A stretch of DNA of 64,000 bases. Origin: Sneathiella glossodoripedis JCM 23214 (GTDB lineage: Bacteria; Pseudomonadota; Alphaproteobacteria; Sneathiellales; Sneathiellaceae). Below the pieces are notes generated by a model. The model was not told where the DNA came from and searched no databases. It saw only the letters and a program-made list of their open reading frames with translations. The translations under genes and the position numbers were made by a program. The DNA lies in NCBI RefSeq assembly GCF_000616095.1, contig NZ_BAMS01000002.1:1-64000 (forward strand), read 5' to 3'. Of this stretch, positions 3,712 through 54,420 are shown piece by piece (the first letter of the stretch is position 1; each line of letters begins with the position of its first letter).

Positions 3712-4281
3712 ATGCAGGATGCCGGGGCAGCATTTGTGAAATGGTTGAAAGTTGATCGCGTAAAGCGTGAACCCCTGACTTTCAGCTTTGCTGCAGATGA
3801 ACAGGAGCGGTCGGATTTGGCGAACAGGCTCGGAATTCTTGAGCTGAAGTCTCTGGAAGCGTCTGGAGAGATCAAGCGAAAAGGGGCCCGGGATCTGTTA
3901 GAACTGACTGGCAGGATCAAGGCGGAAGCCGTACAGGCCTGCGTTGTCAGTCTTGAGCCAGTGCCGCAAGAAATTGAAGAAGAGTTTTCCTTGTGTTACA
4001 CGTTTAACAAGGAAGACACCGTTCTTGAAGAAGCAGAATATGTTGTCAACAAGAACGAAGAAGACCTTCCCGAGTTAGTGGAAGGTGGACAGATTGATCT
4101 TGTGTTGGCGGTGGCTGAGCAAATTGCACTTGCATTGGACCCCTATCCTCGGGCAGAAGGAGCGGAGTTGTCCGGTGAAATGAAAAAACATTTGCTTGAA
4201 CCCGAGGACGAGGTTGAAGGCGAGACTGAAGAAGTTTATAAGCCTTTTGCCAACCTGAAGGATTTGTTGAATAGAAAATAG
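3712..4281 (+). CDS. yceD: YceD family protein (DUF177), upstream of rpmF
   Basis: DUF177 protein whose gene almost always precedes rpmF, in bacteria and in plant plastids, where homologues are linked to 23S rRNA accumulation and ribosome assembly. 189 residues. Seen: an N-terminal segment rich in Glu and Lys, a central EAVQACVVSLEPVPQEI motif containing the conserved single Cys, a conserved acidic stretch ending in LPELVEGGQIDL, and a C-terminal PFANLKDL tail that matches the family. The ATG at 3712 sits behind a GGAAAGGA ribosome site. Probably co-transcribed with rpmF (65 bases downstream). The molecular role in this organism is inferred. Confidence 0.88.
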   Translation: MQDAGAAFVKWLKVDRVKREPLTFSFAADEQERSDLANRLGILELKSLEASGEIKRKGARDLLELTGRIKAEAVQACVVSLEPVPQEIEEEFSLCYTFNKEDTVLEEAEYVVNKNEEDLPELVEGGQIDLVLAVAEQIALALDPYPRAEGAELSGEMKKHLLEPEDEVEGETEEVYKPFANLKDLLNRK

Positions 4282-4346
4282 CGGTATCTGAGAGGACGTC
4301 GCGATTGTTAGACACCCACGCGGGTGCATGAGTGAGAGATAGAGAA

Positions 4347-4532
4347 ATGGCAGTACCTAAGAGAAAGACGACCAAATCTAAGCGTAATATGCGGCGTGCG
4401 CATGACGCACTTGGTGGCACACAGGCACAGGAATGCCCAAATTGTGGTGAGCTGAAACGCTCCCATCACGTATGCGATTCATGCGGTTTTTACGGAGATC
4501 GCGAAGTTCTGGATACTGCAGAAGTTCTTTAA
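4347..4532 (+). CDS. rpmF: 50S ribosomal protein L32
   Basis: L32 of the large ribosomal subunit, 61 residues. I use the ATG at 4347, which starts [20 protein letters not shown], the invariant family opening; a longer frame starting 15 bases earlier adds five residues with no support. Seen: a zinc-ribbon arrangement with CPNCG followed by CDSCG, so this is a four-Cys, metal-binding version and not a Cys-less paralogue. Flanked by yceD and plsX as in most proteobacteria. Confidence 0.96.
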
Positions 4533-4585
4533 GCTGATCTAATCCTGTAGATTAGATGAAACAGTCAATAGAACCGGACGGTGGA

Positions 4586-5683
4586 ATGAGCGACAACGTT
4601 GTGATTGCCCTAGATGCGATGGGTGGGGACGATGCCCCTGATATTGTCATCAAAGGTGTGGACATCGTTCGCGTTCAGTTTCCGAACGCCCGGTTTTTGC
4701 TGTTTGGTGATGAAGCACGTCTGAACCCATTGCTTGATAGTCACCCAGGTGTCAGGGCTGTATGTGAAGTCCGGCACACTGACCAGTCCATTAAGGGTGA
4801 GGACAAGCCGAGCCAGGCACTGCGTAAAGGGCGCAAGAGCAGTATGCGTCTTGCCATTGATGCAGTGCGCGATGGCGAAGCTCACGGTGTTGTCTCAGCA
4901 GGCAATACGGGCGCGCTGATGGCTATGGCCAAATTCTCTCTGCGCACTCTTCCCGGGATTGATCGTCCCGCGATCGCCTCCGTCTTGCCATCCCCCAAGG
5001 GGGAGACGGTGATGCTGGATTTGGGTGCTAATATTGAATGTGATGCTGACAATCTTGTGCAGTTTGCTGTGATGGGCGCTGATTTTGCCCGCGCGGTGTT
5101 AGGCCGGGTCCCTCCACGGGTTGGTTTGCTGAATGTCGGTAGCGAAGAGCTCAAGGGCAGTGACACAATCAAGGAAGCGGGTGAGCGTCTTCGCTCCATC
5201 GAAAATGCACCCTTTGAGTATTCTGGCTTTATTGAAGGGGATGACATTACGCGTGGTGTGGTGGATGTTGTTGTTACCGATGGATTTACCGGCAACGTCG
5301 CTCTGAAAACTGCGGAGGGTGTTGTCGCTCTTTACACTAATTTTCTCAAGGAAGCTTTCTCCAGCTCCTGGCTTTCTAAGCTTGGCTATGTGCTCGCCAA
5401 GGGGGGGCTGAAGCTTTTGAAAGACAGGCTTGACCCCAGAGGCTATAATGGCGGCGTATTCCTAGGGCTTAACGGGATATGCGTTAAAAGTCACGGCGGA
5501 ACGGATGCTCACGGTTATGCAAATGCGATTGCTGTAACTGTTGAAATGGTCTCTGAAGGCCTGCTTGAGAAAATGATCGCACATTTCAAAGAATTTGATG
5601 TAGAAATAAAAGCCTCGGATACTTTGTGTTCGTCTGACACTGAGATGCCTGAAAAATCAGCACCGGCAGCGTCAGGATCATGA
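4586..5683 (+). CDS. plsX: Phosphate acyltransferase PlsX
   Basis: Makes acyl-phosphate from acyl-ACP, the donor for the first acylation of glycerol-3-phosphate in phospholipid synthesis; peripheral to the inner membrane. Seen: the family opening VIALDAMGGDDAPD, then the SMRLAIDAV segment, VSAGNTGALMA, a conserved VMLDLGAN, and VVTDGFTGNV. The ATG at 4586 (MSDN) has a GGACGGTGG ribosome site; a start 30 bases earlier lacks one. 365 residues, slightly over the usual 340-350 because of a Ser/Ala-rich tail. Located between rpmF and fabH, the usual cluster. Confidence 0.95.
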   Translation: MSDNVVIALDAMGGDDAPDIVIKGVDIVRVQFPNARFLLFGDEARLNPLLDSHPGVRAVCEVRHTDQSIKGEDKPSQALRKGRKSSMRLAIDAVRDGEAHGVVSAGNTGALMAMAKFSLRTLPGIDRPAIASVLPSPKGETVMLDLGANIECDADNLVQFAVMGADFARAVLGRVPPRVGLLNVGSEELKGSDTIKEAGERLRSIENAPFEYSGFIEGDDITRGVVDVVVTDGFTGNVALKTAEGVVALYTNFLKEAFSSSWLSKLGYVLAKGGLKLLKDRLDPRGYNGGVFLGLNGICVKSHGGTDAHGYANAIAVTVEMVSEGLLEKMIAHFKEFDVEIKASDTLCSSDTEMPEKSAPAASGS

Positions 5684-5734: not shown

Positions 5735-6705
5735 ATGCGTCGCTCAATCATTACCGGTACGGGTTCTTATCTTCCAAAACGGATCATGACCAATGATGAA
5801 CTGGCTGATATTGTCGATACATCAGATGAGTGGATTCAGGCGCGTTCCGGTATTAAACAGCGACACATCGCAGCAGACGGTGAGCTGACTTCTGATTTAG
5901 GTACACAGGCTGCATTAAAGGCTATGGAGCAGCCGGCCTGGGCCCTGATGATATTGATCTGGTGCTTGTCGCGACCGCTACGCCCGACGAAACGTTTCCG
6001 GCCACGGCCACGACCATTCAACACAAACTCGGAATTACCGGTGGTTTTGCATTTGATGTGCAGGCTGTCTGTACAGGTTTTATATATGCACTTGCCACCG
6101 CCGATAACTTTATCAAGGCAGGACAGGTAAACCGTGCTCTTGTAATCGGGGCCGAGACGTTTTCACGCATTCTGGACTGGGAAGACAGAACGACCTGTGT
6201 CCTGTTTGCTGACGGGGCAGGGGCGCTTGTGCTGGAGGCATCTGAAGAAGAGGGCACAAATCAGGATCGGGGTATTCTGACCAGTCACCTGCATGCGGAT
6301 GGCCGGCATCACGATTTGCTTTATGTGGATGGCGGCCCGTCTTCGTCGCAAACAACTGGATATTTGCGTATGGAAGGCCGGGAAGTCTTCAAGCATGCAG
6401 TTACAAACCTTGCCAATGTTGTGGGTGAAGCACTGGACGCGACAGGATTAAACGCTGATGATATTGACTGGCTGATTCCCCATCAGGCCAACAAACGGAT
6501 CATTGACGGAACCGGGCGGAAACTGAAGATGGATCCGGCTAAAGTTGTTGTCACTGTTGATAAACATGGAAATACATCAGCAGCTTCTGTACCTTTGGCG
6601 CTTGACGAAGCTGTTCGCGATGGGCGGGTCACAAAAGGGGACCTTTTATTGCTCGAAGCGATGGGCGGCGGCTTTACCTGGGGATCTGCTTTGGTGCGAT
6701 TCTAA
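5735..6705 (+). CDS. fabH: 3-oxoacyl-ACP synthase III (FabH), one-base frameshift in this sequence
   Basis: Condenses acetyl-CoA with malonyl-ACP to start fatty-acid synthesis. The N-terminus ([13 protein letters not shown]) lies in one frame and the rest from about 5933 in another; restoring one G next to 5932 makes [15 protein letters not shown] and a 323-residue protein, the family norm. Seen: catalytic Cys in VQAVCTGF, His in [10 protein letters not shown], Asn in [12 protein letters not shown], and the terminal [16 protein letters not shown]. Follows plsX by about 50 bases. The break is unlikely to be real because fabH function is normally required and the rest is intact. Confidence 0.93.
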
Positions 6706-13843: not shown

Positions 13844-14563
13844 TTAATTGGTTGGTTTTAATCGATCATAAAAACCGCCTCGGTGTTTGACTTCTACCAG
13901 TGCCGCTGTAAGTTCCGGTGCGAATTTCTTCAACCGCTCCCCAATGACATGGTATATTTTGGTCTGGTGGATAACAGCTTCCTTGATATCTTCGTTGGCC
14001 CCGATTTTTTCTTTAAACGAATGAAAAAGCGTTGAAGGCATAATTCCGGCGCTTAATCTCTTACCTGTTAAAACACGATATAGTCGCTCATATCCATCCA
14101 GAGGCATTGTTCTGGCACCATATTTTTCCATTATCGCCTTGTCCTGTAATGAACCGCGTAGAATACCGACGGTTCTACCTTTTAATGAGGACTTTATGTC
14201 AAAGCTCTCATGTTGACTGCGGTCGTAGAAAATTGAGATGGAAGCGTCTCCAATCGGTTCTTTGATGAATTCGATTTCAGGAGAGCTGGCTTTTAGAAAC
14301 TCTTCTGTTCGCCATAGATTTGCATCGACTTCCCCGCTTTTTAACGCTTGAAAAGCGCGTGTCCCAGGCATTTCAATAAACTGATGGCAAAGGCCTACTT
14401 TATGATACATTTCTGAAATCATTAGTTTGCCAACCTGTACCTCGGGAGTACCACAATCCCAGTAACTTATTTTGTAACAGCCTTTGGAAAGTGCCGGCGA
14501 TGTGAGCAGGCTACAGATAATCACCAGAAGAAAAGGTTTCGAAAATACCCGTATTGATCCCAT
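13844..14563 (-). CDS. Periplasmic substrate-binding protein-like protein, orphan
   Basis: 239 residues with an N-terminal signal peptide (hydrophobic LLVIICSLLTSPALS, cleavage probably before KGCYK). The mature part has the type II binding-protein pattern (GKLMISEMYHKVG, PGTRAFQALKSGEVDA, GRTVGILRGS) of the bacterial extracellular solute-binding family 3. Unusual Cys at the mature start (GCYKISYWDCG) may form a disulfide. No permease or ATPase of this class is adjacent; the downstream polyamine operon has its own binding protein, so this may be a sensor or an orphan. Ligand unknown. Confidence 0.7.
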   Translation of the reverse strand: MGSIRVFSKPFLLVIICSLLTSPALSKGCYKISYWDCGTPEVQVGKLMISEMYHKVGLCHQFIEMPGTRAFQALKSGEVDANLWRTEEFLKASSPEIEFIKEPIGDASISIFYDRSQHESFDIKSSLKGRTVGILRGSLQDKAIMEKYGARTMPLDGYERLYRVLTGKRLSAGIMPSTLFHSFKEKIGANEDIKEAVIHQTKIYHVIGERLKKFAPELTAALVEVKHRGGFYDRLKPTN

Positions 14564-14794: not shown

Positions 14795-16164
14795 TCAATC
14801 GGAGCTCTCTTCTTTCAGGTTTTTGGGCGCAAATACGCCACCAAATGCTCCAGCACCCGGGTTGACCGGCTCCTCTGAAGTTTCCTTCGGTGCAGTTTCA
14901 TTTAAATTCTGCGGTGCAAATACGCCGCCAAATGCGCCTTTACCTGGATTGTCCTTCTTGCTTTCCGGAACAGGGGCGGCACCATCAGGTGCATTATTTT
15001 CAAGGTTTTGAGGCGCGAATACGCCACCAAAAGCACCTTTGCCAGGCTTTCGATCGCCTGGTTTGAAGAAGGGGCTGCTTTTTGTTGTTCCTGCTGTTTC
15101 TTCAGCATTTCTTGACGGCGTTTTTCTTTGATTGCCTGAATTTTCTTCTCTGTTTCAATTCGTTTCTGTTCACGAACATCCAAAATACATTGTTGTGGGC
15201 TGTGAACCTGAGCGTACCAGATTGTCGAAATAGCGCCGAGTGTTAAGATGATCAAAAGTATGGCAGCTGGGTTTCCTTTAAGAAATTTAGGGAGTTGAAA
15301 ACCTTTGCCCGTCACCGCAGAAACGGGAGCGCCGTTTGCCAAAGCGAGCTGTTGTTTGCGGCGATACATCTCATGCGCGAGGGCTCCAAATAACGTGAGT
15401 GCTATGATGATGAATGCCAGGGCTGAGATTGAAGGATTGATGCCATAGCGCACTTTTTGAGCCAGCTCTATGGTCAATGTGGGATATTTGCCAAATGTAA
15501 ATGTTGTGGTGTTGTAATTTTCAAATGATGCCAAAAATGCGAGTACAGCGGCTGAACCAATAGCTGGCTTCATAAAGGGGAGTAGGATTTTGCGAAAGGC
15601 TTGAACGTTCGTCGCTCCCAAATCGAGCGCTGCTTCCGTAAGCCCGACATCAAAACGTTGCAATCGGGCTATAAAAACAAGCATGCAATAAGATGCGATA
15701 AAGGTGGATTGTCCCAATATTGTAAGGAAAATGCCGTTATGCAGGAAACTGTCACTGCTAAAGCCCAGCATGACATTGATGCGATCCCAGAATACGAGTG
15801 TTGAAATACCCAAAACTACACCCGGTATCAGGATAGGCGCGATCACAATGGTGTAATAAGTTGCCCGCAACCGGGGCCAGATCTGCGTTAGTATCAGGGC
15901 ACCGGCAAGCCCCATGGTAACGGATAAAATGACAGTTCCGGTACCAACGATGAGACTATTACGTATGCCATTTAATATACGTTCGTCATTGGCAAGCACG
16001 TCAAACCATTCAAAAGTCAGGCATTCCCAAGGGGTCATTTTGGGAAAACTCGGAGAATTAAAAGCAGTGATGCTCATAACCAGAAGGGGACCCAATAGGT
16101 AGCCAAAAAACAGGATCAGGTATGCGCCTAGAAGAATTTTGAGGAAGACATTTTCGGATTTCAT
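14795..16164 (-). CDS. Polyamine-type ABC transporter permease (PotC/PotI class) with repeat-bearing C-terminal extension; one-base frameshift
   Basis: Inner-membrane permease. Residues 1-275 form the normal domain with about six helices and the ATPase-contact loop EAALDLGATNVQAFRKILLP. Then comes an extra part: a further hydrophobic helix (about 307-326), a Lys/Glu/Gln-rich probable coiled coil (about 333-362) and three repeats GKGAFGGVFAPQNL. The reading frame breaks at about codon 364; one G:C pair restored in the run at 15071-15074 gives 456 residues ending at 14795. Unrepaired, the frame ends at 14902 in unrelated sequence. The start overlaps the upstream permease by four bases. The extension is not part of any PotC or PotI I know. 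Confidence 0.85.
14816..15049 (-). repeat. Three-copy coding repeat in the permease tail
   Basis: Three 48-base units at 15002-15049, 14903-14950 and 14816-14863 encode (K/N)PG(K/A)GAFGGVFAP(Q/K)NL, spaced 99 and 87 bases. Synonymous codon differences between units with nearly identical protein sequence suggest selection on the peptide. Confidence 0.85.
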
Positions 16165-17090
16165 TTGCCGATATCCCCCATTTTGACCTTAAATAAACGC
16201 ATCATCGACAATACAATCACGACGCAGGTCACGAGCAAGACAATTGCAAAGGCCGCACCGCGGGGCCAGTTGCCGCCTTGGTTGAACCATTGATAAATGA
16301 TCTGCGTGAACCACAGGCTGGATGGCCCACCAAGTATTTGCGGAGCCGCCAAGGCCCCCGCTGTAAGCATGAATACCATTGTGCAACCAGAAGAAATACC
16401 GGGCTTTGCGTATGGAATGACAACGCGCCAATGAATTCGTGCCCAGGACGCCCCCATATCCCGCGCAGCTTCTATCTGATTGCGATCCAGACTTTCGATA
16501 ACGTTGTAAATTGGAAATATCATCAAAAGGATATAAGCGTATCCAAGTCCAGCATAGAGGGCCACATTTGCTCTGATGAAATCGATGGGGTTATCGATAA
16601 GGCCCAGCGTCAGCATCATTTCATTAATCAGGCCTGTTTCTCCAAAAATAATCCGAAATGCGAATGCCCGAAGAATCTCGTTGATCCAGTAAGGGATAAT
16701 CAGCAACAAAACCAGTGCTCGCGCAAAACCACCTGCTTTAGTTTGCGCTAGGTAATAAGCAATTGGATAGCAGATCACCAGATTGAGTATGGTTACAAAT
16801 ACTGCTGCAAGTAATGTTCTGCCAAAAACGCCCAAATCCACCACGTTGTAAGAGCTATCGGCACCGGGTGCACCCAATACCAGATATTTATAATGCTCGA
16901 GCGTATATACGTCTTTTGGTCCCCCCATTTCAGGTGGGGGTAAATGGTGGCGAAAAGAGAAATCCAGCATGGAAAGCTGTGGTAAGATGATAAGCACAAC
17001 GACCCAGAAGAAAACAGCGAACAGTAAAAAACTGCCGAGTGCCAAGCCGTTTCGTTCGAAATAATTGTGAATGGCTTTGGTTACTGACAT
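16161..17090 (-). CDS. Polyamine-type ABC transporter permease (PotB/PotH class)
   Basis: First of two permease subunits, 309 residues. Seen: a long N-terminal helix (LGSFLLFAVFFWVVVLIILPQ), the periplasmic loop with FSFRHHLPPPE, further helices, and the EAA loop EAARDMGASWARIHWRVVIP that docks on the ATPase, followed by GALAAPQILGGPSSLWF, a family signature. Third gene of the operon binding protein-ATPase-permease-permease, which matches the pot arrangement of putrescine/spermidine transporters; the exact substrate is not proven. Confidence 0.9.
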   Translation of the reverse strand: MSVTKAIHNYFERNGLALGSFLLFAVFFWVVVLIILPQLSMLDFSFRHHLPPPEMGGPKDVYTLEHYKYLVLGAPGADSSYNVVDLGVFGRTLLAAVFVTILNLVICYPIAYYLAQTKAGGFARALVLLLIIPYWINEILRAFAFRIIFGETGLINEMMLTLGLIDNPIDFIRANVALYAGLGYAYILLMIFPIYNVIESLDRNQIEAARDMGASWARIHWRVVIPYAKPGISSGCTMVFMLTAGALAAPQILGGPSSLWFTQIIYQWFNQGGNWPRGAAFAIVLLVTCVVIVLSMMRLFKVKMGDIGK

Positions 17091-17096
17091 GGCAGA

Positions 17097-18209
17097 TTAC
17101 TCACTCGCCAATTCGCCGAAGGGCAAAATGATTGCCTGATCTGGATTATACTCCAGTGTTAAATCCTGTCCGACTTCCGACTGGCGGTCCTGCCCGACAT
17201 TCACCAGGGACATTTTTATTTCCTTACCCTGATCACCTTCAAGGAAAACGTTATATGTTTGCCCTTCAAACTCTTCATTTTGAACGCGCGCGCGGATTCT
17301 GTTGTGCGTTAAAGACGTCTCCGTAGCCAGATTGCAGGCTTCGGGGCGTAAAAACATCATCGCCTGATCACCGACCGAGAGTTGGCCTATGGCCGCAGGT
17401 GCTATGCGAGCAACAAGGGCGCCGCTGCGATTGGTTTCAATAATGGCATGTTTGCCATCAATGGATTTGATGCGTCCTCTGAAGACGTTGTTTTCTCCCA
17501 CAAACGAGGCGACGAAAGGGGTCGCGGGATCATTATATATTGTGTGGCCATCCGCGATCTGGTCAATCACGCCCGCCCTCATCACAGCGACATTATCCGA
17601 CATGGTAAGGGCTTCGCCTTGATCGTGTGTAATGTAAATGAATGTGATGCCAACGCGTTGTTGTATCTCTCGCAGTTCAGTGCGCATATGCTGGCGTAAT
17701 TTAAGGTCCAGAGCAGAGAGTGGCTCATCAAGAAGCAATACATCCGGCTCAGCGCATAACGCGCGTGCGATTGCGACACGTTGTTTTTGACCGCCAGATA
17801 ACTCTGATGGCAATTTGTCACCTTGACCAGGCAGAGCGATCATATCCAGAAGTTCATCTGCTCGTTTGCGGCGCTCCAGTTTGCTGACGCCTTGAACCTC
17901 TAGTGAAAAAGTAATGTTTTCCCACACTTTCATCAGTGGAAACAGTGCCAGATTTTGAAAGATAAGGGCCGTCGGGCGCTTGTTGGGCCCAAACCCGGCC
18001 ATATCCTTCCCGCCAATTAGTATCCGCCCATCGCTGGGCTCCAAAAAGCCTGAAACCGCCCGAAGGATGGTAGTTTTTCCGCAGCCGGATGGACCAAGAA
18101 AGGAGAAAAATTCACCACCATTAATATTTACATTTGCTTCGCGAACCGCCACAAAGTCACCAAATCTGATCCAGACATCCTCAAGTGTGACGCCGACACC
18201 TCTGCTCAT
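17097..18209 (-). CDS. Polyamine-type ABC transporter ATP-binding protein (PotA/PotG class)
   Basis: ATPase that drives import, 370 residues. Seen: Walker A GPSGCGKTT near residue 40, Q-loop in TALIFQNLALFP, signature LSGGQKQRVAIARAL, Walker B VLLLDEPLSALD, H-loop in ITHDQGEAL, and a C-terminal TOBE domain (about 280-370: VGDQAMMFLRPEACN). The C-terminal regulatory domain is typical of the polyamine, sulfate and sugar class. Lies between the binding-protein gene, from which a hairpin separates it, and the first permease (six-base gap). Confidence 0.93.
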   Translation of the reverse strand: MSRGVGVTLEDVWIRFGDFVAVREANVNINGGEFFSFLGPSGCGKTTILRAVSGFLEPSDGRILIGGKDMAGFGPNKRPTALIFQNLALFPLMKVWENITFSLEVQGVSKLERRKRADELLDMIALPGQGDKLPSELSGGQKQRVAIARALCAEPDVLLLDEPLSALDLKLRQHMRTELREIQQRVGITFIYITHDQGEALTMSDNVAVMRAGVIDQIADGHTIYNDPATPFVASFVGENNVFRGRIKSIDGKHAIIETNRSGALVARIAPAAIGQLSVGDQAMMFLRPEACNLATETSLTHNRIRARVQNEEFEGQTYNVFLEGDQGKEIKMSLVNVGQDRQSEVGQDLTLEYNPDQAIILPFGELASE

Positions 18210-18319: not shown

Positions 18320-19464
18320 TTATGCGCTCTTGAATTTGTTTTCATATTCAGTGCGAACTTCACCATACCACGGTGCTTGAGGTGGCCACGGATTAAGATT
18401 GCTGAGTGATTCACCGGGGTAAGCATCAGAGAAGTTTTTCTTGTAAGCAGCACCAGCAAACCCGTCAGCGCCCAAAACAGGTGAATTATAGCCATGGTCA
18501 TCAATGGCTTTGCCTGCATTTTTCGCTTCGTATGAGAATTTGATGAACTCATAAATCTGATCAATATTTTTGGCGCCAACTGGCATTGCCATTCCATCTA
18601 CCATGCCATCGCGCCTTCCTTAGGTGCTTGATACATGATAGGCTCACCAGCGGTTTTCAGCGCCATTGGGGGCCCATCCCATGTCTGTCCGACGATTACG
18701 CCTTCGTTTAACAATCCATTTTTCTGGGTATCTGCATCATTCCAAAGAAGTTTGAGGTTCTTCTTACGGGCAATACACCACGAAGTTACTTTATCCCAGA
18801 TTGGACGCATGGTTTCTTCATTGGAATAGGCTTTCCACATATCACCTGGCTCGAGCTCGCCAATGGTTTCCATGTATAAACCGGCACATAGCATCATGGA
18901 GTGCGGACGTCCCATTGTTTTGCCGGCATTTGCTTCATCCCAGATGTCACCGTAGCTCGGTGCGTCGCCAGCAGGTGCCCACTTATCAGTCCGCCATGCA
19001 ATTCCTTCTGTTCCCCAAATGTGCGGCAGCCAATGGGAGCCTTTACCATTAAAGTTCCAATCTTTGTCGCCGATATTTGTCATGGCTGGATTAACCTTGT
19101 CGGTTGGTACACGGCCCATGTCAAACGGTTGAAGCAGTTCCAATGGACCCCATTCAAGTCCCTGATTATTGGTCGGAGATACGATGTCGAAGCCCTGACC
19201 TTTATTTGCTTTCATTTTGTTGATGATTTCTTCATTGGATCCGATACCGGTGTAGTTGATCTTGATGCCGGTTTCGTTTTTGAAATCTTCAATAAATTTT
19301 GGTGGCAAATAGTCAGACCACATCAGGATATTGATTTCCCCTGATGAGGATAATGCATTTTTGATATAAGCAGGACCAGTGGCTACAAAGGCACCCGCGG
19401 CCGTTGCACCTTTCAGTATTGTGCGGCGGTTGATTGAGCTGGATTTGTGTGTTTGTTTCGTCAT
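18320..19464 (-). CDS. Polyamine-type periplasmic binding protein (PotD/PotF class); one-base frameshift
   Basis: Captures the substrate for the ABC transporter. N-terminus has a twin-arginine-like signal (SSINRRTILKGATAAG) with the hydrophobic stretch to about residue 40, then EINILMWSDYLPPKFIEDF, the usual start of spermidine/putrescine binding proteins, and FDIVSPTNNQ. The frame breaks at 18601 (APKEGAMAW then stop); one restored G gives MAWVDGMAMP and continues to 18320 with a Trp-Pro-rich end, for 381 residues. First gene of the operon, with a GGGGAG ribosome site. Tat export is inferred from the Arg pair. Confidence 0.88.
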
Positions 19465-24647: not shown

Positions 24648-26473
24648 TTAAGGTCCAGTTTTTCCTGGTTTCGCTTTTACACGCACATAGGAGCCAGGAG
24701 CATCTTCTATTGGCTTAAGCTTGCCTTTCTCGGGATCTCTGGCCGGGACTTTCTTGCCTGACTTTTTAGACAGCCATTTGTCCCAATGAGGCCACCATGA
24801 TCCCGGATGTTCACAGCGTCCTTTAGCCAGTCATCAGCTGTTTCATATTTTTTGCGGGAATTGTTTGTCCAGTATTGGTACTTGTTAGCAGATGGATGGT
24901 TCATGACACCTGCAATATGACCTGAACCTGCGAGCATGAATTCAGCCGGGCCGCTCATGAGCTTGGTTGCCTTGAATACTGAATTATAGGGGGCGATATG
25001 ATCCTCTCGGCTGGCCTGAACAAAGATCGGCGTCTTAACTTTAGAAAGGTCAATTGGTTGCCCGCCAAGGGTTAATCCTCCGGGCTTACTGAGAAGATTC
25101 TTCTGATACATATTCCTTAAGTAGAAGCTATGCATCTGTGGTGGCATATTCGTGGTATCACAGTTCCAGAAAAGAAGGTCAAATGGGAAAGGGTCTTTGC
25201 CCATCAGGTAGTTGTTCACTACAAAAGACCATATCAAGTCATTGGAGCGCAACATATTGAAAGTTGTCGCCATGTTTTTTCCTTCAAGAAAACCGGCAGC
25301 TTTCATTTTGCGCTCAATCATCTGCACCTGCTCTTCGTCCGTAAAGAGGAGCAAATCACCAGCTTCTTCAAAATCGGTCTGCGCTGCGAAAAAAGTGCAG
25401 GCCTTAATACGGTCCTCTCCAATAGCTGCAAGATAGGCGAGGGTTGCGGACATTAAAGTGCCACCGATGCAATAACCAATCGCGGTAACTTCTTTCTCGT
25501 CAATCGTTGCCTCGATTGCATCAAGTGCAGCCAGAATTCCTTCCGACATATAACTTTCAAATGTTCTATCCGCGTGCCGTTCATCCGGGTTGACCCAAGA
25601 AATTACGAAAACGGTATAGCCTTGATCTACGCACCATTTGATGAAGGAATTTTCCTGCTTCAGATCCAGAATATAAAATTTGTTTATCCATGGTGGCGTG
25701 ATAAGCAATGGACGTTTGTAGACTTCCTCTGTGGTCGGCGTGTATTGGATCAATTGCATCAAGTCATTTTGAAAAACGACCTTACCTGGCGTTACCGCAA
25801 TATTTTTACCAACCTCAAAAACGCCGTCAGGAACCATGCGGGGATTGAGTTGCCCTCTTCCATTCTTAAGATCCTCCAGCAAGTGCTCAAGGCCTTTGAT
25901 CAGGTTTTCTCCTTTGGTTTCATATGTGCGTTTTAAAACGTCGGGGTTAGACCAGAAAAAGTTGCTGGGTGACATTGCATCGGTAATCTGGCGTGTATAA
26001 AAATCGACTTTCTTGTGGTCGGTTTCAGACAGGCCGTCGACTTCTGCTACCATGTCATTAATGGTTTTTGATGTCAGAAGGTAAGACTGCTTGATATAAT
26101 CAAATATCTGATTTTTGGTCCATTCTTCTGAACGAAAACGCTTGTCGCTTTTGTCAGGCTCGATGACCGGTTTAACTTCTTGTCCCATTGCAGCCTGTGC
26201 TGCGTTTTGCCACAGCTCCATGTAACCTTGCCATAGCTGGGTTTGAGCTTGAATAATTTTTTCAGGCTCGCTGAGCATTTTTTGGGTGAGCTCCAGAAAC
26301 GCTCCGCTGATGTTCAGCGGGTCGATCTCAACCTGTCCGGCAGATTTTTGTTGCTCATAAAATTCTGTGACCAGCTCCAGGCTTTTTTGGGACAAGCGAG
26401 CCAGATTGTCTGCAAATTCCTGAGAGTCTTCAGGAAAAGCGGGTGTAGAAACATTCGGATTCCGGTCTGACAT
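24648..26473 (-). CDS. phaC: Class I poly(R)-hydroxyalkanoic acid synthase (PhaC); one-base frameshift
   Basis: Polymerises hydroxyacyl-CoA into storage polyester on granules. The core is in one frame to about 24813; restoring one G there yields DAVEHPGSWWPHWDKWLSKK and carries on to a stop at 24648, giving 608 residues, normal for class I. Seen: N-terminal PHA-granule domain, PPWINKFYILDLKQENSFIKW, the lipase-like box GYCIGG with catalytic Cys near residue 335, DFEEAGDLLLF, and HIAGVMNHPSANKYQYW with the catalytic His. The start is the ATG at 26473; the upstream frame extension is spurious. No phaA/phaB nearby. Divergent from an OmpA-like gene. Confidence 0.93.
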
Positions 26474-40244: not shown

Positions 40245-40411
40245 TTTAACTGGCGTAATTTTATTGCGCAGTGAGCAGATTTACCGCTTTAAAATTAGTC
40301 GACCGACCGGTTCTTTTAGGTGAATTTCAAAAAAATTTACGTCCTGCATTTTTGCTCTAGGAATTTCAAAACTTGCCGTTATGATTGCGCTGCAATTCTT
40401 AAGGAGTTGCT

Positions 40412-41874
<1,463 letters not shown>

Positions 41875-48364: not shown

Positions 48365-49707
48365 GTGATAAAAACAGCAGTTTTGATTGGTAAGCAGGTT
48401 GCTATGGCGGGATTGCTCGTTTCAATAGCTGGCTGCTCGTGGCTTCCTGACTGGTTGGGGGAGTCAGAAGCGCCGCCACTACCTGGTGAACGGATTTCAA
48501 TTCTGGCGCTGGAACAAACGTTGGAGCCGGATGAAGAGCTCGCTGATGTAACAGTGCGCTTGCCCGCTCCCTATCAAAATGAAAATTGGCCACAGGCTGA
48601 TGGCAACGCAAGTCACGCTTTGCACCATTTAATATTGGATGGTGAATTGCAGGAGCAATGGCGTATTGATATTGGCGAAGGCTCCAGTGATGAAGCCCGG
48701 CTGATGGCGAAGCCATTGTTGCAGATGGGCGCATTTTTGTTATGGATGCAGAAAGCCACGTTCGTGCTTTTAACGCCAAAACGGGCAAAAAAATCTGGGA
48801 AGTCAATCTGACACCGCGCGGTGAGGAATATGGCACAATCGGTGGTGGGCTCGCGATTGAATATGGGCGCCTTTTTGCTACTACTTCTTATGGGGATGTT
48901 TGGGCGCTTGATCCAGCCTCAGGCGCTATGTATTGGAAGCAGAGCCTGAAAGTCCCACTGCGCGCCGCGCCAACAGTTGCGGAAAATACCGTCTTTGCGG
49001 TTACTTATGATAGTCGTCTTTACGCCTTGGATGTCTTAAGCGGTGACATCAACTGGGATTTTGAAGGGGGACTGGAAGTAACAGGGTTGCTGGGAGCAGC
49101 AACACCTGCCGTAGATAACGGAATTGTGCTTGTCCCGTTTTCTTCAGGTGAACTTTATGCCCTTCGGACAGATAATGGAGAGCAGGCTTGGAGTGATCAG
49201 TTGCAGCGTAAACGCCGCTCCAGTTCTTTGACCTCACTGACCGATATTAACGGTAGCCCTGTCATTGACCGTGGGATAGCGATTGCGGCCAGTTTTTCCG
49301 GACATATGGTCGGGATTGATGTGCGCACAGGCGAGAGAAAGTGGGAACAGGAACTGGCCTCGCTGCAGACACCGTGGGTTGCCGGTGATTTCGTTTTTAC
49401 CGTCACCACAGATGGCGAGCTGGTTTGCCTGACGAGACAAACGGGCAAAATCCGGTGGGTTCGGGCGCTTGGAAAATATGAGGATCCGGAAGATAAAACT
49501 GGCGTTATTGTCTGGTCAGGACCTATTTTGGCCAGTGATCGTTTGATTTTATTATCCAATTACGGTATTGGGGTGTCTGTTTCGCCTTACGACGGTACGA
49601 TTTTGGGTAAAGTGGAGTTATCTGACTCTGCTTCTATGGCCCCAATCGTAGCCGGAGGCATGTTATTTATTTTGACGGACGATGCCGAACTAGTTGCGTA
49701 TCGCTAA
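48365..49707 (+). CDS. bamB: Outer membrane assembly lipoprotein BamB; one-base frameshift
   Basis: Beta-propeller lipoprotein of the BAM complex. The N-terminal part (to about residue 118) and the rest lie in different frames; restoring one base near 48714 gives [18 protein letters not shown] and 447 residues. Seen: a lipoprotein signal with lipobox VSIAGC (Cys near residue 20), then PQQ-like blade motifs such as [43 protein letters not shown] and [14 protein letters not shown]. Starts at GTG 48365. Sits between yfgM and der, as in E. coli. Confidence 0.91.
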
Positions 49708-52951: not shown

Positions 52952-54420
52952 TCAGGATCGTTCCGCGAGCAGCGTCAGTTCTTTTTCTGCGCCGCTGTCG
53001 TTATCCACCAGATCGATGGGATAATCACCTGTAAAACAGGCGTCACAATATTGGGGGAGCTCGGCATTCCTGCTCGTTTCACCCATCGCTTTATAGAGAC
53101 CGTCAAGGGAGATGAAGCTCAGACTGTCAGCCCCTATGAATTTGCACATCGCATGCAAGTCATATTGCGCGGCGAGCAATTTCTGACGCGAAGGCGTGTC
53201 CACACCGTAAAAACACGAATGTGTTGTGGGGGGACTTGCGATGCGCATATGAACCTCTGTCGCTCCCGCTTCGCGAACCATTTGAACAATCTTGGTCGAT
53301 GTTGTCCCGCGGACGATACTGTCATCCACCAGTACAACCCGTTTACCTTCAATCATTGCGCGGTTGGCATTATGTTTAAGTTTTACACCCAAATGGCGGA
53401 TTTGGTCTGTAGGCTCGATAAAGGTACGACCCACATAGTGATTTCTGATAATCCCGAGCTCAAAGGGAACACCAGACTGTTCAGCATAACCGATCGCCGC
53501 AGGGGTTCCACTATCCGGAACTGGTATGACCGCATCCACATCAACCGGGTTTTCGATTGCCAGTTGGCGACCGATATCTTTGCGAACTTCATACACCGAC
53601 CGGTTTTCCAAAACACTGTCAGGGCGAGCAAAATAAATATGTTCAAAAATACAGAAACGCGGTGCCGGTGGAGTGAAAGGATGACTTGATGACATCCCAT
53701 TTTCATCGATGACAATGACTTCACCCGGTGCGACATCCCGAATGAATTCGGCGCCGATAATATCAAGCGCACAAGTTTCTGACGCCAGTATATAAGCATT
53801 GTCCAATTTCCCGAGGACAAGCGGCCGTACCCCGTGTGGATCGCGCATACCGACCATTTTTTTGCTGGTCAGCGCAACCAGTGAATATGCACCGGTTATT
53901 TTGTGCATTGCATCAACAATACGGTCTACAACCTTGATTTTCTTGCTGTTTGCAACGAGATGAATAATCACCTCCGTGTCCATGGTCGACTGGAATATGC
54001 TCCCTTCGAGACCAGTTGCTTGCGCAACGTAGCCGCATTGGTAAGGTTACCGTTATGGGCGACTGCAAGCCCGCCATTTGCCAGATCGGCAAAAATGGGC
54101 TGCACATTTCGAATAACAGTGCCGCCAGTGGTCGCATATCTGTTATGTCCGACAGCAGCGCTTCCTTTAAGACTATTGATAACCTCTTCTGAGGAAAAAC
54201 TGTCACCGACTTTTCCCATGGCTTTGTGGCTATGGAAATGGCGTCCATCATGACTGACTATTCCCGCAGCTTCCTGGCCGCGGTGTTGCAGGGCGTGCAG
54301 GCCCAGCGCAGCCAGGGCCGCAGCCTCGTCATGACCATAGATGCCAAAAACACCGCATTCTTCGTGGAGTTTGTCATCATCAAAGGGGGTGGTGAAGAGG
54401 TCCATGTCTTGCTCAGTCAT
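52952..54420 (-). CDS. purF: Amidophosphoribosyltransferase (PurF); one-base frameshift
   Basis: First committed step of purine synthesis. The N-terminal part (54420 to about 54003) and the rest lie in two frames; restoring one G in the GGG run (opposite 54002-54004) makes KGSIFQSTMDTEVII and 489 residues, family length. Seen: propeptide then the catalytic Cys in HEECGVFGIYGHDEAAAL, QHRGQEAAGI, HNRYATTG, PRT-domain VVLVDDSIVRGTTSTKI, and FEHIYFARPDS. Overlapping purF-cvpA order is conserved. Not credible as a real null mutation in an otherwise intact gene. Confidence 0.94.

Follow-up and report, generated by a model that had tools for sequence, protein, structure and literature searches.

The window, the whole 64,000-nucleotide stretch of Sneathiella glossodoripedis DNA analysed here, encodes a PotC/PotI-type permease that continues past its six-helix core into a C-terminal tail. 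The tail comprises, in this order, a charged link, a seventh transmembrane helix (TM7), a cysteine, a charged helix, and three GAFGGVFAPxNL repeats, an anatomy that we assign with high confidence. On the sequences compared, such a tail is a regular part of an alphaproteobacterial clade of PotC/PotI-type permeases and occurs in several lineages. It is a real, conserved variant of a known importer, undescribed as far as the open-access literature was covered. The tail matched no Pfam or NCBIfam model, with hits at chance level only, and no description of a tail on a PotC/PotI-type permease was found among the matches listed from the open-access literature.

Architecture of the permease and its operon

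The importer genes of the window lie on the minus strand, and their order, binding protein, ATPase, PotH, and PotI, is found again in L009, a Sneathiella sedimenti locus with its permease orthologue at positions 4001-5287. This is the composition of polyamine importers of the PotABCD/PotFGHI kind, to which the window importer belongs as judged by gene content. The features are as follows.

16164 down to 14795, minus strand: PotC/PotI-type permease gene (assembled ORF 14902-16164, minus strand)
15355-16164, minus strand: permease core, residues 1-270, six transmembrane helices (Pfam BPD_transp_1)
16021-16023, minus strand: Cys48 (PWEC) in periplasmic loop P1, proposed disulfide partner (core-column pattern)
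15268-15366, minus strand: positively charged link from helix 6 to helix 7, expected to be cytoplasmic (net charge before TM7)
15208-15267, minus strand: TM7, residues 300-319 (hydropathy, orthologue model)
15187-15189, minus strand: Cys326 (HSPQQC), immediately past helix 7 (joint pattern with Cys48)
15079-15189, minus strand: charged helix or coiled coil, residues 326-362, expected to be periplasmic (sequence, orthologue model)
15061-15088, minus strand: frame break, most likely an assembly error (intact relatives shift frame there)
14996-15043, minus strand: repeat 1, GKGAFGGVFAPQNLEN (profile E 2.3e-8)
14897-14944, minus strand: repeat 2, GKGAFGGVFAPQNLNE (profile E 2.1e-10)
14810-14857, minus strand: repeat 3, GAGAFGGVFAPKNLKE (profile E 3.2e-8)
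14795-14797, minus strand: stop codon TGA of the tail frame (sequence)
16161-17090, minus strand: PotB/PotH-type partner permease (orthologue at L009 3072-4004 matches PotB/PotH models)
17097-18209, minus strand: PotA/PotG-type ATPase (orthologue at L009 1953-3065 matches PhnT2- and PotA-type models)
18320-19464, minus strand: PotD/PotF-type substrate-binding protein, frame-broken (three relatives, in G041, G390, and G342, align in two frames at 18601)

The core domain is recognized by Pfam BPD_transp_1 in both the window permease (41.7 bits) and its L009 orthologue (46.7 bits), against a gathering cut-off of 26.4. The best NCBIfam family for the permease is the PotC equivalog NF007047 (122 bits, below its curated cut-off of 326), followed by the PotI equivalog NF007889 (110.7 bits, below its curated cut-off of 476). 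The window and L009 operons share their gene order with E. coli PotFGHI, but the PotI model, at 281 positions, lacks a tail. In Ruegeria pomeroyi, polyamine import by potFGHI (SPO3466-3469) is shown by mutants (PMC10130141), a result that we do not count as functional evidence for the tailed importers.

Foldseek searches with the model of the L009 orthologue returned 8y5i_C and 8y5f_C as the best matches, and its six-helix core aligns to E. coli PotC (8y5f_C) across residues 9-269. The E. coli PotD-PotABC system (8y5f/8y5h/8y5i; Sci Adv 2024, PMC11414716) has the same permease, ATPase, and binding-protein composition; that paper describes PotC with six helices and periplasmic loops P1-P3, P3 being the scoop loop between helices 5 and 6. 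The E. coli chain, however, is 264 residues long with nothing beyond helix 6, neither TM7 nor tail, and has Gly at the Cys48 position. Tail-less PotC/PotI paralogues from alphaproteobacteria, 23 rows that include L114 and L119-L123, belong to the same family and show 44-59% identity in the core, but cover 253-302 residues from the start of the match, end shortly after helix 6, and have Gly, Ser, Ala, or Glu at the Cys48 position.

The extra helix, charged helix, and three repeats that the earlier note had read after the permease core were confirmed by sequence, hydropathy, and an independent repeat profile. Hydropathy detects TM7 in all 80 kept relatives (the best 80 of 154), and the charged helix (326-362) is rich in Lys, Glu, and Gln. 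The L009 orthologue was modelled with AlphaFold2 at modest confidence (mean pLDDT 66, pTM 0.54); the model has TM7 as a helix at 298-319 and the charged helix at 323-357, with pLDDT below 50 in 361-383, 385-413, and 422-428. Because pLDDT is low over most of 361-428, the part that carries the repeats would be a flexible end extending past the helix that we propose below to be stapled. In many tails, those of L009 and L026 among them, another brief stretch, (K/Q)GPD(I/V)F, is conserved after the charged helix and ahead of the first repeat.

The binding-protein orthologue (L009 669-1838) matches PotD/PotF-type structures, the best being 7xjm_A (E 1.1e-27). Its N-terminus carries the stretch SRRNVLK, and that of the window protein (18598-19464) NRRTILK; we take these to be twin-arginine-like, suggesting Tat export. 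Directly 3' of the permease gene, at 13844-14563 on the minus strand, lies a gene for a small secreted-looking protein with no NCBIfam match at 1e-5.

The frame break in the assembled gene

As they stand, the assembled letters end the permease frame at 14902, and the three repeats are read in a different frame from the core, up to the TGA at 14795-14797. Two intact relatives align in one frame upstream and in another downstream of a shift located between 15061 and 15088. The window genes were compared with ORFs of related genomes, mostly from G041, and for the operon from G390 and G342. At an identity threshold of 55%, 48 ORFs matched; they cover 42 window genes, of which 8 align in two frames. 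These are the tailed permease, its binding protein at 18323-19464, and the following six; six of the gene names come from NCBIfam matches of the relatives' proteins.

196-2267: hppA, two frames against G041
5735-6702: fabH, two frames against G041
24654-26473: phaC, two frames against G041
40385-41871: guaB, two frames against G041
48365-49704: bamB, two frames against G041
52955-54420: purF, two frames against G041

A survey of 25 genomes of the family gave 17 matches, namely the window's own permease, 13 other tailed orthologues, and three tail-less paralogues, with no match at threshold in the other eight. All 13 of these tailed orthologues, which are from the same genus, are open through the repeats; one of the same-genus genomes is identical to L009 in this gene. 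It is unlikely that guaB, purF, and fabH are all broken in the living cell. Because these genes are broken in the same way and the same-genus orthologues are intact, an assembly error very likely accounts for the break at 15061-15088, as the earlier note had suspected, and the pattern points to indel errors through the assembly.

The opposite reading, that the frame truly ends at 14902 and that the repeats are either relics that are not translated or a gene of their own, takes the assembled letters at face value and is highly improbable. It is contradicted by the intact frame in 80 of 80 kept relatives (best of 154) and in the 13 same-genus orthologues, by the same kind of break in 8 of 42 window genes, and by the purifying selection acting on the repeats. 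A separate gene with its own start, which the earlier note had named as the case against a tail, was ruled out, since the window ORF list holds no ORF of at least 60 aa with its own start ending at 14795, and relatives encode the whole protein in one open frame; the tail belongs to the permease. Recoding under table 4 (TGA as Trp) was also considered, and ORFs listed under that code gave no sign of it. A programmed frameshift was set aside because relatives need no change of frame to encode the protein and because unrelated genes of the window show the same kind of break.

Distribution of the tail and conservation of the repeat peptide

An uninterrupted tail is present in all 80 kept relatives (the best 80 of 154; 64-84% identity over the best segment), from a search that favoured tailed proteins in that two of its six query peptides lie within the charged helix. 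The titles of these relatives are those of alphaproteobacterial groups, except for L081, a metagenome bin labelled Gammaproteobacteria. The earlier note knew of no PotC or PotI with such a tail; the E. coli PotC chain and the PotI model indeed lack it, but in the alphaproteobacterial clade it is regular.

Surveys of the class and the phylum were queried with the core alone. In the class, 43 of 385 genomes gave matches, and the 30 loci read divide into 14 tailed, the window among them, and 16 tail-less. In the phylum, 10 of 299 genomes gave matches; among six newly read loci L163 is tailed and L164-L168 are tail-less. A survey of 149 genomes of the G331 family, which seems to include Ruegeria since L194 and L033 have the same tail, scored at most 11 candidates per genome and found a tailed match at threshold in six, only tail-less matches in nine, and none in 134. 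Distant tailed proteins retain TM7, the Cys, and a reduced motif (IFAPQNL, VFAPSNL; in one group PFGGAFGG). The window protein has all four traits of the clade, namely TM7, the Cys pair, the charged helix, and the FGxVFxPxxL repeats, the last lying past the frame break. On a tree of 67 core sequences, which was built with the Cys48 column omitted and contains several long rows, tail and no tail are separated by one change on a weakly supported branch (support 61). The tail would fit a single origin, for which support is weak.

A 21-position profile built from the repeats of other organisms only finds the window's three repeats in the 3.6 Mb genome (E 2e-10, 2e-8, and 3e-8). The fourth-best match in the genome has an E of 0.13, and no further near-consensus copy was found there, such copies being what the profile sees. 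The profile is blind to strongly diverged tails and missed those of G001, G040, and G135, which the core search later revealed. Applied to 142 genomes of the class, it returned the tailed permeases of G000, G041, and G042 together with eight weak matches (E 0.007-0.1), which we took as chance matches. Three of the eight carry IGGFGGVFDP, in proteins that are presumably PurM-like; the other five lie in unrelated-looking frames.

Each kept relative has between one and three copies of FGxVFxPxxL (80 relatives, best of 154); by a simple pattern, two copies are counted in 72, one in 4, and three in 4. Over 158 units of equal spacing, the successive core positions are F in 153, G in 158, V in 140 (A in 14, I in 4), F in 157, P in 154, and L in 150 (I in 8).

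Pairwise comparison of the three window repeats gave pS of 0.58-0.95 against pN of 0.03-0.11, and the proposal of the earlier note that the peptide is under selection holds on this sequence evidence. Among eight relatives, pN/pS is lowest in the core (0.09), followed by TM7 and the motifs (0.18 each), the charged helix (0.26), and the remainder of the flexible tail (0.32). As judged from these ratios, the motif changes less than the sequence around it, which is what a short binding peptide would be expected to show. Because FGxVFxPxxL is kept and the linkers are freer to change, the tail is more than the low-complexity surface that had been suggested as one possibility.

Membrane side, the cysteine pair, and the possible role of the tail

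In the alignment of 96 tailed rows, which include the window (L104) and genes fetched twice (L105/L145; L106/L013), Cys48 and the tail Cys are both present in 89 and both missing in 7. Cys48 is absent from 23 of 23 tail-less rows, a set that holds one gene twice (L114 and L148). Among 270 core columns, this is the only one invariant across the 89 rows with the pair and missing from both the 7 and the 23; the other core Cys (160) shows no link to the tail Cys, which sits 5-10 residues past TM7. A further 21 loci, reduced to 16 when L169, L171, L172, L192, and L194 were dropped as repeats, agree: both Cys are present in 6 of 6 tailed and the P1 Cys is missing in 10 of 10 tail-less loci. One of these ten, L200, has an unrelated-looking C-terminal stretch bearing a Cys.

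The seven rows lacking the pair (L026, L027, L049, L054, L059, L064, and L081) have Val for Cys48 and Ala for the tail Cys and form one clade, six of them being in the tree. The tree needs just two joint changes of the pair, so a sign test cannot reach significance. Because this clade retains the tail, a staple would not be indispensable. Tailed and tail-less permeases are also told apart by two other core columns, T176 and A212; residue 176, which we take to adjoin the EAA loop, is T in tailed and E or D in tail-less proteins.

By analogy with E. coli PotC, both ends of the core would be cytoplasmic, hence TM7 would put the tail in the periplasm. Averaged over 46 relatives, net charge is +2.1 for the 25 residues that precede TM7 and -1.1 for the 15 that follow it. 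Because this charge pattern and the Cys pair agree, we place the tail very probably on the periplasmic side, and a disulfide staple from Cys48 in P1 to Cys326 at the base of the tail is likely. The charged helix beyond TM7 is rich in Lys and Arg, which is unusual for a periplasmic stretch and would suit a tail that stays in the cytoplasm, where, if the hydrophobic segment were not a full crossing, it could contact the ATPase or another cytosolic protein. We judge such an arrangement improbable, given the drop in net charge across TM7 and the joint presence or absence of the tail Cys with a Cys of periplasmic loop P1.

We propose that a PotFGHI-like permease gained a seventh helix that would return its C-terminus to the periplasm. 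The Cys48-Cys326 disulfide would staple the start of the tail and so hold the charged helix by its base at the translocator's outer rim, while the flexible, linker-rich end would display its one to three FGxVFxPxxL peptides as putative docking motifs. The most likely ligand would be the operon's own soluble PotD-like binding protein, which would be kept near the channel. The tail would then do non-covalently what fused binding domains do in other importers. OpuA is one of these, with binding domains covalently fused and kept beside the translocator; a similar effect is proposed for the tail, which, unlike OpuA, offers a charged helix and short motifs and no binding domain. Searches of the tail against Pfam and NCBIfam at E up to 1 found no binding-protein model, which places the permease outside the fused-domain importers.

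With no other near-consensus copy of the motif in the genome, a dedicated partner is more probable than some general receptor, and the binding protein would be the most likely dedicated partner because only transporter genes are present at most of these loci and it is the soluble periplasmic member of the system. In 98 loci (nine of them tail-less) searched with tblastn, PotH is found in 97, the ATPase in 93, and the binding protein in 89. This count is better than our clustering of neighbours, which missed some transporter genes, at least partly for longer opposite-strand frames (clusters 4 and 9). In the clustering of 80 loci with flanks of up to 4 kb, solely transporter genes reach a majority; other clusters, some of them opposite-strand neighbours, as at L030, occur in no more than 24 loci.

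Between the binding proteins of 77 tailed and 9 tail-less operons, differing residues are scattered and no obvious docking element was found; PotH has four tail-specific positions only (85 tailed versus 9 tail-less), and in both proteins such positions are confounded with descent. One binding-protein Cys occurs in 72 of the 77 tailed systems but in just 1 of the 9 tail-less ones, a distribution that alone would suit a partner of the tail Cys. It was rejected as such because 5 of the 6 rows seen of the clade that lacks the tail Cys carry it, and L035, L188, L189, and L191, which have the tail Cys, do not.

Tethering by the tail, as the earlier note had envisaged, is plausible, and the Cys pair and charge pattern support an extracytoplasmic tail. 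The whole explanation, a stapled periplasmic tail whose repeats serve as a putative tether for the operon's binding protein, has in our estimate somewhat less than an even chance of being right, and the identity of the partner is weakly indicated. A periplasmic tail might instead anchor or cluster the importer through another envelope protein, as first suggested, or through the cell wall; a flexible, multivalent tail with a strict short motif would suit this, and the lack of near-consensus motif copies in the genome leaves room for a partner outside the operon. Such a partner would, however, have to be present in all tailed lineages, and within the 4 kb flanks 24 of the 80 loci is the most that any non-transporter gene reaches, and we consider anchoring of this kind unlikely.

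Helix 7, staple, and tail could also form an assembly or stability element, with TM7 packing against the permease pair and the repeats either binding to PotH/PotI in turn or protecting the C-terminus. The presence of TM7 in all 80 kept relatives (best of 154) is consistent with this, as is the separation of tailed from tail-less proteins at T176 and A212, expected if TM7 altered packing. Most of residues 361-428, however, have no predicted structure (pLDDT below 50), PotH differs at only the four positions, and a packing element would presumably need no repeated exposed motifs; we consider this reading quite unlikely. Generalizing from a tether to the binding protein, the preferred reading, to an importer class in which a multivalent, disulfide-stapled tail with FGxVFxPxxL holds the binding protein reversibly, by neither fusion nor lipid anchor, is possible but doubtful.

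A well-studied importer type carries a conserved tail, probably outside the inner membrane, in several alphaproteobacterial lineages. Should the binding protein be recruited by the tail, this would offer a simple genetic way to study how uptake affinity for scarce nutrients depends on the local concentration of binding proteins.
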